Part shown: positions 917 through 5,021 of the stretch, in pieces | Position numbering within the stretch: position 1 is the first letter of the stretch | Layout: each line of letters starts with the position of its first letter | Assembly (NCBI GenBank): GCA_900107185.1 | Contig: FNPA01000009.1 | Location: 62,001 to 126,000, forward strand | DNA: 64,000 bases | From: Ruminococcaceae bacterium YAD3003 | GTDB lineage: Bacteria > Bacillota > Clostridia > Saccharofermentanales > Saccharofermentanaceae | Direction: 5' to 3' | The notes under the pieces: model-generated | Databases searched by the model: none | Told to the model about the DNA's origin: nothing | Seen by the model: only the letters and a program-made list of their open reading frames with translations | Translations under genes and position numbers: made by a program

Positions 917-1606
917 TTATTTCTTCTTTGCGATCCTGTTAAACTGAGGTCTGACTTCGACTTCGGTTACCGCACAGCCCTCGCGCATATTAATAATATT
1001 CTTTATACATAAAGCAACGTCTTCGGGAACGAGATAGCATCCCTCTTCGTCCGACGGTGTGAAATCAGCATTTCTGTAGAGCTTCGTGCCGAGAGTGAGG
1101 TCCGGGCAGACGGTTACAACGCGGACTCCTGTCTTGCGCACTTCTTCATATAAACTTCTGCTGTAGCTTCGAAGTCCTGCCTTGAGCGCGCCGTATACAG
1201 CGCCGTGGGTATTGATCCTGGTCGAAGTAACTGATGCGATATTTATCACCATGCCCTTAGTATCTTTAAGTTTGGGGAGCAAAGCGGATGTGAGGATCAT
1301 TGGAGCTTCCAGATCAGTTCTGCACATCTCTTTTATCTGTTCTGGAGTGTTGAATTCGGCCAGACCATAGTAAGCACTGCCTGCTCCGTTTACGAGCAGG
1401 TCGACGCTCTTTATGTCAGAGATCTTTTCAAGCAGGATATCAGTGTCCCTTATGTCGAGCGAGATCCTCTTCTCAAAGAAATCACATCCTTCGGGGAATA
1501 CCCTTCCGATGCCGTAAACCTTATATCCTTCTTCAGAGAGCATCTTTGATGTCGCAAGGCCGATTCCGGATGAAGCGCCGGTTACAATGGCAGTCTTTAA
1601 TTCCAT
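917..1606 (-). CDS. SDR family NAD(P)-dependent oxidoreductase
   Basis: Classical short-chain dehydrogenase of 229 residues. The Rossmann motif TGASSGIG lies at residues 9-16, NGAG at 73-76, and the catalytic set is S125 with Y138-xxx-K142. The substrate cannot be read from sequence. Its start lies inside the 3' end of the upstream SPL-like gene (10 nt overlap), and that gene overlaps the nucleosidase, so the three are probably co-transcribed from about 3300. In that setting it might act on a nucleoside- or sugar-derived alcohol or ketone released by its neighbours, which is inference. Confidence 0.85.
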   Translation of the reverse strand: MELKTAIVTGASSGIGLATSKMLSEEGYKVYGIGRVFPEGCDFFEKRISLDIRDTDILLEKISDIKSVDLLVNGAGSAYYGLAEFNTPEQIKEMCRTDLEAPMILTSALLPKLKDTKGMVINIASVTSTRINTHGAVYGALKAGLRSYSRSLYEEVRKTGVRVVTVCPDLTLGTKLYRNADFTPSDEEGCYLVPEDVALCIKNIINMREGCAVTEVEVRPQFNRIAKKK

Positions 1607-2571
1607 GTGAAGATCTTCTCCCTTTCGATGTGATCTGTAAGAAGTCCGCAGACATAATCCTGCATCGACTTGTCAGTTTCAGGATCGTATTGAGCGACGC
1701 TGTCCCTGACCATGTACGGATACCAGGCAATCTCGGAATCCGGGTAAGCCTGGCGCATCCTGGTCAAATAGTCAGCAGATATTCTGAACGCGCCGACGCT
1801 GATGTCCGTCAGACGCGAAAAATCTATCGCAGCAGCCGCATCGTCGATCAGCTTTTTATAAGCCTTCTGATAATCAGGAATCTTAATGATGGGGTCAAAA
1901 CAGAGCCTGACCCGGGCACCGTTCTCAACTGCTTTCGCGGCCGCTCTGATACGCGCATCAACAGGCGCGGTAAAACGTTCGTAATGCTCAACAACCTCTA
2001 CCGGCGACAACGTAAAAGCATATATGACATTCGGTGTGTTATCCGTGATCTCGGGCGCCGCTTTAGTCCTCAGTTCAACGAGAAGATCGTCATGAGTCAT
2101 GGCCATTTCTTTCCAGAAATCGGCGTGACCAGTAAGGCCGTTCATCGCAATGAGGTCAGTATCATACGAGGCGCAAATATACTTCGGACCCGGGCACAGA
2201 CGCTCTTCGATATCAGTCTTATAGTCTTCGAGATTTACGAACACAACAATGTAGGACGACGGATACATTCCCCTCAGATAGCAATACTCGCAATCGAAAG
2301 GACAATTCATCATGGAACTCGCATAGAAGAAATTCTTGTTGCCAAAAGACTGGCACACAGGCGCGCCCTTGTAGATCCTGTGGCCTTCCCTTACCGCAAT
2401 TATCAGCGCGCGGTGCTCCCTCTGCAATGTAACATCCTGTTTCTTCCTGTCGAAAACATCCTTGTAGTGCACGATCGGAATCACGTTCACGCCCTGAAGT
2501 TTATCCAGGATTTGTTCTGTGAGAGGATACTCAGCTGCTCTTTCCTCAACGTAAATATGAGTAAATCTCAT
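1597..2571 (-). CDS. Spore photoproduct lyase-like radical SAM protein
   Basis: Radical SAM protein of 324 residues resembling SplB (spore photoproduct lyase): YVEERAAEYPLTEQILDKL near the N-terminus and a CX3CX2C cluster motif at C90, C94, C97 followed by YLRG. I chose the ATG at 2571 because GGGAGGTG precedes it; a longer form from 2625 lacks such a site. Compared by memory with Bacillus SplB, the hydrogen-donor cysteine (C141 there) aligns with Y136 here; a cysteine sits three residues earlier (C133). It may therefore be a paralogue acting on another nucleic-acid or nucleoside lesion. It overlaps the genes on both sides. Confidence 0.8.
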   Translation of the reverse strand: MRFTHIYVEERAAEYPLTEQILDKLQGVNVIPIVHYKDVFDRKKQDVTLQREHRALIIAVREGHRIYKGAPVCQSFGNKNFFYASSMMNCPFDCEYCYLRGMYPSSYIVVFVNLEDYKTDIEERLCPGPKYICASYDTDLIAMNGLTGHADFWKEMAMTHDDLLVELRTKAAPEITDNTPNVIYAFTLSPVEVVEHYERFTAPVDARIRAAAKAVENGARVRLCFDPIIKIPDYQKAYKKLIDDAAAAIDFSRLTDISVGAFRISADYLTRMRQAYPDSEIAWYPYMVRDSVAQYDPETDKSMQDYVCGLLTDHIEREKIFTWN

Positions 2572-3277
2572 TGAGCACCTCCCTTCCGGCTTTCTTATCC
2601 TTTGCAGGAAGTCTGCCTTCATCACGGTACTTCTGAAGGAGATTTAAAAACTCCTCCTGCCTCCCTGATACGGCCACATAGTGCTCGATATCATGGAGTT
2701 CATTCCGCATATATTGAGTAAGATGGAATTCTGCAGAGATGCCCTTGGGAAGGAACTCATAAGACTTCGCTTCAGGTGTATTCTCTGTCATGAGATGCGC
2801 GATCTTTTTGATCGTCGGCAGGTGCTCTCTCATCATTTCGGTTACTTCTTGAGCGGTCATGAAATCAGTTCCGCTGTCAGAAACCACCTTATAAAATGTA
2901 AGATTAGACGGCGGTATGACCTTAAGAACTTTCGCGCAGATAAGGGCCGCCTCCATATCGACAATGACTCCTTCGTCAACTTCGTTCACGATACCGGGAG
3001 ATGTCATAAGCGGCATTTCTTCAATGTCTGTCTCGAAAAGAATATCCGGGTAATAAGTCTTGCACGTAGTCATGGAAGTCACTTTGTTGACGAGATAACC
3101 TTTGCCCTTATTTCTGCCGGCACAGACGCCGACGTTCAGGATCTTATCCCCGCTCTTTAATTCAAGCGATTCCAAGATGTCATTGGCTCTCAGACCGACA
3201 CCCGTGAAGATTACCTTCCCGGGCAATCCGTTAAGAACTGATGCTTCACATTTAAGGGCTGCAAGGATATAAAGCAA
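2546..3277 (-). CDS. Nucleoside phosphorylase/nucleosidase-superfamily protein (MTA/SAH nucleosidase-like)
   Basis: 243 residues with the fold signature of purine-nucleoside phosphorylases and MTA/SAH nucleosidases: VGVCAGRN around 49-56, VDMEAA at 106-111 (the substrate-contacting Met-Glu pair) and KVVSDSGTD near 130-138, corresponding to the family's SD..D region. It is more divergent than housekeeping Pfs, so the substrate is open. Translation starts at a TTG at 3277 with AAGGAAGG about 12 nt upstream. Its 3' end overlaps the SPL-like gene by 26 nt. A nucleosidase next to a DNA-lesion-type radical SAM enzyme suggests handling of modified nucleosides, which is inference. Confidence 0.7.
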   Translation of the reverse strand: MLYILAALKCEASVLNGLPGKVIFTGVGLRANDILESLELKSGDKILNVGVCAGRNKGKGYLVNKVTSMTTCKTYYPDILFETDIEEMPLMTSPGIVNEVDEGVIVDMEAALICAKVLKVIPPSNLTFYKVVSDSGTDFMTAQEVTEMMREHLPTIKKIAHLMTENTPEAKSYEFLPKGISAEFHLTQYMRNELHDIEHYVAVSGRQEEFLNLLQKYRDEGRLPAKDKKAGREVLNEIYSYLR

Positions 3278-3297
3278 GAGTCACACCATCCTTCCTT

Positions 3298-3326
3298 TTG
3301 ATAATTATATTATAAAATGTTAATAT
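3298..3326 (+). promoter_or_regulatory. Promoter of trpS
   Basis: TTGATA (3298-3303), a 17-nt spacer and TAATAT (3321-3326) lie 32 nt before the trpS ATG. The AT-rich divergent gap is shared with the nucleosidase operon on the other strand. No T-box fits in the short leader. Confidence 0.5.
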
Positions 3327-3357
3327 TAGGCGTCTTACTAGGACATCGGAGGTTAAT

Positions 3358-4347
3358 ATGGACAGATTACTTACGGGCCTTCAGCCCAGCGGCTCTCTTA
3401 CGATCGGAAATTACGCAGGCGGAATCTCCCAGATCGTTAACTATCAGAAGGATTACGAAACATTCCTTTTCGTACCTGATATGCATGCCATCACGGTTCC
3501 CCAGGATCCTGATGCTCTTCACAAGAACATCATCAACGCTATCGCAATGTACATCGCATGCGGCGTCGATCCCAACCTTGAGAACATGCACATCTACATT
3601 CAGTCAGAAAATCTCTATCACGCAAATCTGTCCTGGATTTTTGAATGCCACACTCCTCACGGAGACCTGACCAGAATGCATCAGTTCAAGGCAAAGTCAG
3701 CGCTTCACGAGACTTTCACAGAGGGCCTCGTTACTTATCCTGACCTCATGGCAGCAGACATCCTGCTCTACGATCCGAAGTACGTTCCTACCGGTATCGA
3801 CCAGAAGCAGCACGTCGAGCTCGCACGTAATCTCGCTATCCGTTTCAACAACCGTTACGGCGAGTTGTTCAGAATTCCTGAGCCGCTCATCCCTACCGTC
3901 GGCGCGAAGATCCGGGATCTCCAGAACCCTAACCAGAAGATGAGCAAGTCAACAGATAACCCGAAGGCATCTGTCTTCCTCTCAGATCCTGAGAAGACAA
4001 TTCGAAAGAAGATCATGTCCGCTGTTACGGACTCAGACGGCATCATCAAGTTCGATGAAGATGAGAAGCCCGGTGTATCCAACCTTCTTACTATCTACTC
4101 TGTATTCTCCGGTTGCGAGATCGAAGATGCAGTTGCTAAATTTGAAGGCGGCGGATACGGCGACCTCAAAAAGGCAGTAGCTGATGCAGTTGTTGAGAAG
4201 GTCGTTCCTTTCCAGGAGAAGTACAACGAAGTACTCGCAAGCGGAATCATCAACGACATTTTGGATGCCGGCCGCGATTACACAAACGAGATCGCAAAAG
4301 AAAAATACGAGCTCGTCAGAAAGGCAGTCGGATTCGGCCGCGTGTAA
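3358..4347 (+). CDS. trpS: Tryptophanyl-tRNA synthetase
   Basis: Class Ic aminoacyl-tRNA synthetase charging tRNA-Trp in the cytoplasm. It has 329 residues, the usual bacterial length. The HIGH-like motif is TIGN at 15-18 and KMSKS is at 194-198; GIDQKQHVELAR at 146-157 is typical of the family. The start is the ATG with GGAGG 5 nt upstream. It is transcribed divergently from the nucleosidase operon and ends at a strong hairpin terminator. Confidence 0.97.
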   Translation: MDRLLTGLQPSGSLTIGNYAGGISQIVNYQKDYETFLFVPDMHAITVPQDPDALHKNIINAIAMYIACGVDPNLENMHIYIQSENLYHANLSWIFECHTPHGDLTRMHQFKAKSALHETFTEGLVTYPDLMAADILLYDPKYVPTGIDQKQHVELARNLAIRFNNRYGELFRIPEPLIPTVGAKIRDLQNPNQKMSKSTDNPKASVFLSDPEKTIRKKIMSAVTDSDGIIKFDEDEKPGVSNLLTIYSVFSGCEIEDAVAKFEGGGYGDLKKAVADAVVEKVVPFQEKYNEVLASGIINDILDAGRDYTNEIAKEKYELVRKAVGFGRV

Positions 4348-4381
4348 TTTTCGCGAAGTATAATTTCAGACAAAACAATTA

Positions 4382-4412
4382 CGCCGGAGCACTCACGCTC
4401 CGGCGCTTTTCT
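4382..4412 (+). terminator. Intrinsic terminator between trpS and the convergent gene
   Basis: Nine-base-pair stem CGCCGGAGC / GCTCCGGCG with a 6-nt loop, followed by CTTTTCT. It sits 34 nt after the trpS stop and faces a minus-strand gene ending at 4443, so it may also act for that gene. Confidence 0.8.
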
Positions 4413-4442
4413 ATCCCTTTTCCATATTTGCGGTAAATTGTC

Positions 4443-5021
4443 TTATTCAACGTGCCACAGATAGCTGCGGTCATATTCAGCAGGCAGCTCGGTCCACTCT
4501 CCGTCCGATACTTCGATGTACCACTGCTGTTCGGTAGAATCCCATTCCATCCAGCCGTAATCACCATAGTCGGATGAGATGCCTTCGTACCAGTACTGCC
4601 ATGTGTGAGTCTTGGTCGTGTCGTTGTACCAGAAATAGCAGTCTGTTACCGGATCGTAGTAGCAATCGAATTCGTCATTCCATTCGCATGTACGGTCAAT
4701 TGACTTAACGTAGTAGCTGTTCTGGACTGCCGTTGCTTCGTATGCATTTTGTGCATCAGCCTTCTTCTGCATCTGCTCCATGACGAATGCAGGGAACTCG
4801 GGAAGTTTGCTGAGTGTTGACTTGAACTTCTCCATATCCATTGTCGCACCCGACAGGATATAGAAACCCATGAATCCAAAGAGCAAAACTGCTATCGGAA
4901 CTCTGATGAGCCAATCGAAGATCGTGAGTCTGCCTGAGCTTCTTCCACGGCTGCTTGAGCTGTAGCTTCTGCTGCTTCCAGAATCGTAGTGTGTAGATGA
5001 ACTCTTTTGTGAAGGTGGCAT
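4443..5021 (-). CDS. Single-pass membrane protein with Trp/Tyr-rich C-terminal strands
   Basis: Not recognised. 192 residues from the ATG at 5021, which has AGGGAGG upstream; an upstream in-frame start at 5159 has none. A Ser/Arg-rich N-terminus of about 30 residues is followed by one hydrophobic segment (IRVPIAVLLFGFMGFYILSG), then a helical linker and an acidic Trp/Tyr-rich C-terminus with repeating strand-like units (YYDPVTDCYFWYND, WMEWDSTEQQWYIEVSDGEW) that look like WW-type or small beta repeats. The tail probably lies outside the cell. The function is unknown. Confidence 0.7.
   Translation of the reverse strand: MPPSQKSSSTHYDSGSSRSYSSSSRGRSSGRLTIFDWLIRVPIAVLLFGFMGFYILSGATMDMEKFKSTLSKLPEFPAFVMEQMQKKADAQNAYEATAVQNSYYVKSIDRTCEWNDEFDCYYDPVTDCYFWYNDTTKTHTWQYWYEGISSDYGDYGWMEWDSTEQQWYIEVSDGEWTELPAEYDRSYLWHVE

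Follow-up and report, generated by a model that had tools for sequence, protein, structure and literature searches.

A conserved gene pair encoding an MTAN-type nucleosidase and a radical SAM relative of spore photoproduct lyase, with an optional oxidoreductase

The window analyzed here is a 64,000-nucleotide stretch of contig FNPA01000009.1 from Ruminococcaceae bacterium YAD3003, a non-spore-forming gut bacterium. It carries three complete, overlapping reading frames on the minus strand, described in the original prediction with overlaps of 26 and 10 nt; their coordinates were confirmed.

2546 to 3277, minus strand: NUC, an MTAN-type nucleosidase with a C-terminal helical part, 243 amino acids, TTG start at 3277
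2546 to 2571, minus strand: overlap of NUC and the SPL-like gene, 26 nt
1597 to 2571, minus strand: radical SAM protein resembling spore photoproduct lyase (SPL-like), 324 amino acids, ATG start at 2571
1597 to 1606, minus strand: overlap of the SPL-like gene and SDR, 10 nt
917 to 1606, minus strand: SDR, a classical oxidoreductase and optional member of the locus, 229 amino acids, ATG start, with TGASSGIG and YGALK

The TTG at 3277 is preceded by AAGGAAGG and the ATG at 2571 by GGGAGG, and these codons are most likely the starts of NUC and the SPL-like gene, respectively. On the opposite strand, trpS has its start 80 nt away. Downstream of SDR, positions 1 to 573 of the minus strand encode a second radical SAM protein (reading MILGGLQKLTLLDFPGTVACTVFTVGCNLRCPFC..., cut by the window start), by its look of the type that activates anaerobic ribonucleotide reductase.

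Related loci were drawn from a class sample of 291 Clostridia genomes, a phylum sample of 299 genomes and an order sample with 77 carriers of the SPL-like gene, for part of which flanks were taken; phage and plasmid collections were also scanned. Matches to the SPL-like protein in the class sample fell into two groups, one at E values of 1.3e-49 or below (42 genomes, the carriers) and one at 1.7e-15 or above that represents ordinary SPL, with both kinds present in 7 genomes. NUC or a remnant of it stands directly upstream of the SPL-like gene in 42/42 carriers, which bears out the earlier pairing of a nucleosidase with an SPL relative; in 4 of the 42 the two are fused in frame as one protein. 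Such fusions occur in 8/85 carriers overall, Fusobacterium included, and mapping them on the tree takes at least 4 changes. Where the genes are separate, their reading frames overlap by 4–59 nt in 75/77 loci (SPL-like starts as picked by script) and by 26 or 29 nt in all close relatives of the window. Recurrence on this scale indicates that the overlap is not due to chance, and the tight coupling proposed for the genes is upheld.

The association is also exclusive from the side of the nucleosidase. A profile search of the 291 genomes found full-length NUC in 40, all of them SPL-like carriers (40/40); this figure counts G162, in which NUC is frameshifted and lies in three frames with its catalytic residues still readable. 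L112 (G021, at a contig end) does not enter the NUC tally. The class-sample carriers without full-length NUC, G231 and G346, both have remnants. Among 16 further carriers in the phylum sample 13 have NUC, and three members of one genus (G546, G511, and G651) have no NUC gene at all. Of the 26 closest loci, 25 come from close relatives with the same gene order and the other, L027 (Lachnospiraceae P6A3), retains a 77-amino acid piece of NUC, from the C-terminal part only. In the open-licence literature the NUC/SPL-like pair was not found described.

SDR is less constant. The window protein scores 109.3 bits against PF00106 (cut-off 26.6), has both the TGxxxGxG and YxxxK motifs and is remote from paralogs in its own genome (next best 48 bits versus 500). 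In the class sample SDR stands in tandem with the pair in 23/42 carriers, as read from gene end positions; it is present in 1/16 of the further carriers in the phylum sample and in 24/26 close loci, the exceptions being L002 (contig edge) and L027 (none). Neither a replacement third gene where SDR is missing nor any other consistent neighbor was seen among the loci inspected. Thus the locus has NUC and the SPL-like protein at its core, with SDR as an optional addition, so that of the trio envisaged earlier the pair proved conserved and conservation of the third gene partly failed. An anti-phage defence role was considered and rejected, as 0/5 proteins matched any PADLOC model at E 0.01.

The SPL-like protein scores 50.8 bits against PF20903 (cut-off 27) and 62.9 bits against TIGR04070, below the cut-off of 400. 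Its predicted model (pLDDT 77.3; under 50 at residues 71–73 and 88–106) matches the fold of Geobacillus SPL over the whole length (Foldseek 7.3e-17) and aligns with 4rh0 at Z 24.8 over 307 residues (rmsd 4.1). The residues that bear on its chemistry are as follows.

2353 to 2355, minus strand: Cys73, aligned with Cys74 of Clostridium acetobutylicum SPL, an alternative H-atom donor
2281 to 2304, minus strand: radical SAM motif Cys90-X3-Cys94-X2-Cys97, with Tyr96 inside
2278 to 2280, minus strand: Tyr98, corresponding to Bacillus subtilis Tyr99 of the SAM-regeneration relay (PMC3742179); Phe in 31/85 SPL-like rows
2164 to 2166, minus strand: Tyr136, at the aligned place of catalytic Cys141 (B. 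subtilis) or Cys140 (Geobacillus)

Sixty-five SPL-like rows were compared with 18 ordinary SPLs, a larger set holding 85 SPL-like rows. All 65 keep the CX3CX2C cluster motif, the relay tyrosine at the B. subtilis Tyr97 place and a cysteine where C. acetobutylicum SPL has Cys74, which has been described as the conserved cysteine of that enzyme (PMC5368176). The Lys of the TK motif is likewise common to both kinds of protein. The Tyr99 place is not conserved in SPL-like proteins, being Tyr in 40/65 and Phe in 25/65, compared with Tyr in 18/18 ordinary SPLs; in the larger set, Phe calls for at least 16 changes on the tree, and among the ordinary SPLs it occurs in 0/18. At the Cys141 place the SPL-like rows have Tyr in 56/65 and Cys in none. 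Four residues invariant in 18/18 ordinary SPLs (Glu135, Arg191, Lys307, and Tyr308 in L145 numbering) are replaced, and new invariants have appeared (Glu167, Arg223, Gly261, and Arg264, numbered from one codon ahead of the ATG). Near the C terminus, the lost Lys-Tyr pair presumably sits in a DNA-contacting hairpin. Mean pI is 6.77 for the SPL-like proteins (n = 65; window protein 5.36) against 8.61 for ordinary SPLs (n = 18), and a tree built from 68 SPL-like proteins and 18 ordinary ones splits the groups with 100/100 support.

Absence of Cys141 was rejected as proof that a protein is not an SPL, because the 18 ordinary SPLs of the same class lack it too; 10 of the 18 have a cysteine at the Cys74 place, like the SPL-like clade. 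The other 8 ordinary rows (L133, L135, L136, and L138–L142) make up a second ordinary Clostridia SPL type with neither cysteine.

One explanation of the locus is ordinary repair of spore photoproduct-type DNA lesions by an SPL that happens to have two incidental neighbors. The fold, the cluster motif and the H-donor cysteine at its C. acetobutylicum place would be expected of such an enzyme, and SASP, read by eye, occurs in 30/42 class-sample carriers. However, the window's own genome has neither SASP nor SpoIVA, its only SPL-type protein is the SPL-like one, and SASP is absent from 8/8 sampled members of the genus, this genome included. The original prediction had seen no sporulation gene nearby, and the lack of a spore connection is supported. 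Together with the low TIGR04070 score, the replaced invariants, the shift in pI, the separate clade and the seven genomes that carry both kinds of protein, these results make ordinary repair improbable. The loss of SPL invariants, the altered pI and the separate clade argue instead for a new substrate.

How the SPL-like proteins use SAM is suggested by the Tyr99 place. In B. subtilis SPL, exchange of Tyr99 for Phe or of Cys141 for Ala is reported to stop SAM regeneration and to make the amount of 5'-deoxyadenosine equal to that of the product, the Tyr99Phe enzyme forming one 5'-deoxyadenosine per turnover (PMC3742179). The repeated occurrence of Phe at this place in SPL-like proteins therefore points to consumption of SAM. 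The window protein has both relay tyrosines and, judged from its residues, may still regenerate SAM in the SPL manner, since Tyr98 is kept and the cysteine at the Cys74 place is present in 65/65 rows.

For the window NUC itself, neither Pfam nor NCBIfam gives a credible hit (best E 0.1 and 0.16), and its assignment comes from its fold and its family. The predicted model (pLDDT 82.1) matches the MTAN fold over residues 1–167, at Z 14–16.5, and the profile of the family finds MTANs as its best matches in the PDB (2.4e-11). Three parts can be told apart.

2777 to 3277, minus strand: nucleosidase domain, residues 1–167, aligned to MTAN structures (Z 16.5, rmsd 2.7, 159 residues)
3044 to 3052, minus strand: family motif Tyr76-Pro77-Asp78 (YPD), Asp78 being invariant in 33/33 members; also present in three NUC remnants
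2549 to 2770, minus strand: C-terminal helical part, residues about 170–243, all that locus L027 retains of NUC

Three residues, Glu in the AMEEE region, Glu in MEA and Asp in VSD, are preserved and align with the catalytic positions of MTAN; the matched structures include 1z5n (Glu12Gln) and 1z5o (Asp197Asn). Lys130 and Asp78 do not vary among the 33 sequences of the family alignment. Of these members 25 match PF01048, 28 the futalosine-hydrolase model TIGR03664 (E 0.01), 20 and 11 the two MTAN models (the 11 being for TIGR01704, E 0.01) and one, weakly, the HpnG model (0.0073). The window NUC has no match to TIGR01704 or TIGR03664 at E 1 and none to the HpnG model. CT263 and the futalosine hydrolase of Helicobacter pylori are among the closest folds. 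NUC thus shares fold and catalytic Glu, Glu, and Asp with MTA/SAH nucleosidase (MtnN/Pfs, TIGR01704) and differs from it in the YPD motif, the extra C-terminal helical part, the lack of a model match for the window protein, and its exclusive association with a single radical SAM enzyme. In L074, L102, and L156 the YPD segment survives next to a degenerate catalytic core; given what these remnants and L027 retain, there is a hint that the YPD segment and the C-terminal part may serve the partner rather than catalysis.

Nucleosidases of the MTAN/futalosine-hydrolase type are specific for C5'-modified nucleosides, such as the by-products of SAM. This bears on the original prediction that the three genes could make up a route for handling damaged or modified nucleosides, in which NUC would cleave free damaged nucleosides. 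Overlapping genes for a nucleosidase fold and a relative of SPL do invite that reading; nevertheless, the specificity of the type, the optional nature of SDR and the lack of a consistent further neighbor in the loci inspected all tell against it, no evidence points to damaged nucleosides as substrate, and we regard it as very improbable. Because enzymes of this type act on C5'-modified nucleosides, the radical SAM reaction itself offers the better explanation of the pair.

The preferred reading, to which we assign a probability of about one half, is that the radical SAM enzyme derives from SPL and has taken on a new substrate, and that NUC is a nucleosidase devoted to clearing the 5'-deoxyadenosine this enzyme produces. 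Under this scheme NUC and the SPL-like protein would form a two-enzyme unit. The radical SAM component, descended from SPL or sharing an ancestor with it, would act on a different, non-DNA substrate and take SAM as a co-substrate, thereby releasing 5'-deoxyadenosine. NUC, probably docked to its partner through the C-terminal helical part, would split this on the spot into adenine and 5-deoxyribose and so relieve product inhibition. SDR, where present, might reduce or oxidize either what the radical SAM enzyme makes or the sugar set free. Radical SAM enzymes are inhibited by 5'-deoxyadenosine (PMC8102628). The folds, the catalytic residues, the one-to-one pairing, the fusions in separate lineages and the separate clade are computational observations, and an MTAN-type hydrolase that belongs to, overlaps with or is fused to a radical SAM enzyme is most simply accounted for by 5'-deoxyadenosine removal. 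Biotin synthase, also a radical SAM enzyme, reportedly required a nucleosidase in vivo in one study.

Further support for this reading comes from genomes that have lost NUC. Canonical MTAN over the cut-off is present in 6/6 genomes with a lost or degenerate NUC compared with 21/78 with an intact one (Fisher p 0.0007; 0.007 at one genome per lineage), a tally that includes 25 order-sample carriers from outside the class sample and leaves out L156 and L157, whose genomes are unknown. G162, with its frameshifted NUC, has no MTAN; it was left out of both groups and tested both ways, and counting it as a loss weakens the association (p 0.0037; by lineage 0.027). On the tree the losses number four, each in its own lineage, and the tree-corrected test yields four independent pairs, none the wrong way, with a median p of 0.25; with only four pairs the sign test cannot reach significance. 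The pattern is seen within one family, where genus g287 lacks NUC and has MTAN and genus g391 carries NUC without an MTAN over the cut-off; by genome, G674 has NUC and no MTAN over the cut-off, whereas the related G546, G511, and G651 possess MTAN but not NUC. The replaceability of NUC by MTAN is therefore suggestive, although not significant after tree correction. In addition to this weak corrected test and to G162, the three genomes without any NUC the carriers that keep NUC beside MTAN, the SAM regeneration that the window protein may retain, and the more frequent matches to the futalosine-hydrolase model than to MTAN models count against the preferred reading.

In carriers as a whole, canonical MTAN is somewhat rarer than in other genomes (11/42 versus 108/249, Fisher p 0.042, not tree-corrected). 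NUC as a replacement for a missing MTAN was nonetheless rejected, as 11 carriers have MTAN together with NUC or a NUC remnant, and the 21/78 carriers that keep an intact NUC beside MTAN indicate that NUC is not merely a spare copy. The window's genome has no MTAN by TIGR01704. Its two PF01048 proteins besides NUC read as a purine nucleoside phosphorylase type and a uridine phosphorylase type, the gene for the former adjoining one whose sequence reads as S-adenosylhomocysteine hydrolase.

The main competitor of 5'-deoxyadenosine removal is adenosylation, in which the SPL-like enzyme would add the 5'-deoxyadenosyl radical to an acceptor, NUC would strip off the adenine and SDR would reduce the exposed sugar. 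The same logic underlies futalosine-dependent menaquinone synthesis, where the radical SAM enzyme MqnE is followed by the nucleosidase MqnB. MqnE belongs to another radical SAM family and the window NUC does not match the MqnB model (TIGR03664); in the NUC family, this is nevertheless the curated model most often matched (28/33), which fits a larger C5' substituent, and the closeness in fold to CT263 and the H. pylori enzyme points the same way. An on-pathway step would also suit the exclusive pairing and the fusions. A second precedent is HpnH, adenosylhopane synthase, which adds the 5'-deoxyadenosyl radical before the phosphorylase-superfamily enzyme HpnG removes adenine; the subsequent reduction has no established enzyme (PMC12583986). 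SDR would fit such a third step. HpnH is likewise of another radical SAM family, and the single weak match to the HpnG model counts against the parallel. Loss or degeneration of NUC in four lineages that keep the SPL-like protein would not allow an obligatory NUC step unless MTAN takes over, and SDR is missing in 19/42 carriers. On balance we regard adenosylation as possible but less probable than the preferred reading. Between 5'-deoxyadenosine and adenine of an adduct as what NUC removes, the data favor neither decisively; the likeness to futalosine hydrolase favors the adduct. The fuller proposal that the SPL-derived enzyme, NUC, and SDR install a SAM-derived 5-deoxyribosyl or polyol group on a metabolite, and do so in anaerobes with or without spore formation, among them Fusobacterium, is rather doubtful.

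Whichever of these two main readings holds, the SPL-like protein should not be annotated as spore photoproduct lyase. It shares with SPL the fold, the cluster motif, the Tyr97 place, the Lys of the TK motif and the cysteine at the C. acetobutylicum Cys74 place, and differs in its acidic to neutral character, its pairing with NUC and its presence without spore genes. The whole suggests a widespread radical enzyme served by its own partner for clean-up or finishing. The SPL superfamily has, as far as the cited literature goes, one established reaction, and a sister clade with its own nucleosidase suggests a second; the pair also bears on whether SPL-resembling radical SAM proteins of non-spore-formers act differently and on the means by which cells dispose of 5'-deoxyadenosine. 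Lineages with MTAN and no NUC provide a ready genetic test, and the fusions a single polypeptide for assay, among them the 623-amino acid NUC-SPL protein of Fusobacterium vincentii, which is accompanied by an SDR 38.98% identical to that of the window.

Several minor observations arose from the same searches. A chromosome-size record of F. vincentii (L155, NZ_CP084075.1, 2108235 bases) is filed as a plasmid and has almost no annotation. A human-gut scaffold filed as a bacteriophage (L156, MT835514.1) carries at 2829–4969, in that order, SDR, a 160-amino acid NUC remnant with the YPD segment and the SPL-like gene; its other genes look bacterial. In the NUC-less genus (L169, L170, and L173) a repetitive, coiled-coil-like gene of 159–208 amino acids occupies the place of NUC upstream of the SPL-like gene. 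Lastly, a genome without an SPL-like gene encodes a NUC-like nucleosidase that lacks the C-terminal part (G176:C13:48780-49388), perhaps the form from which NUC arose.
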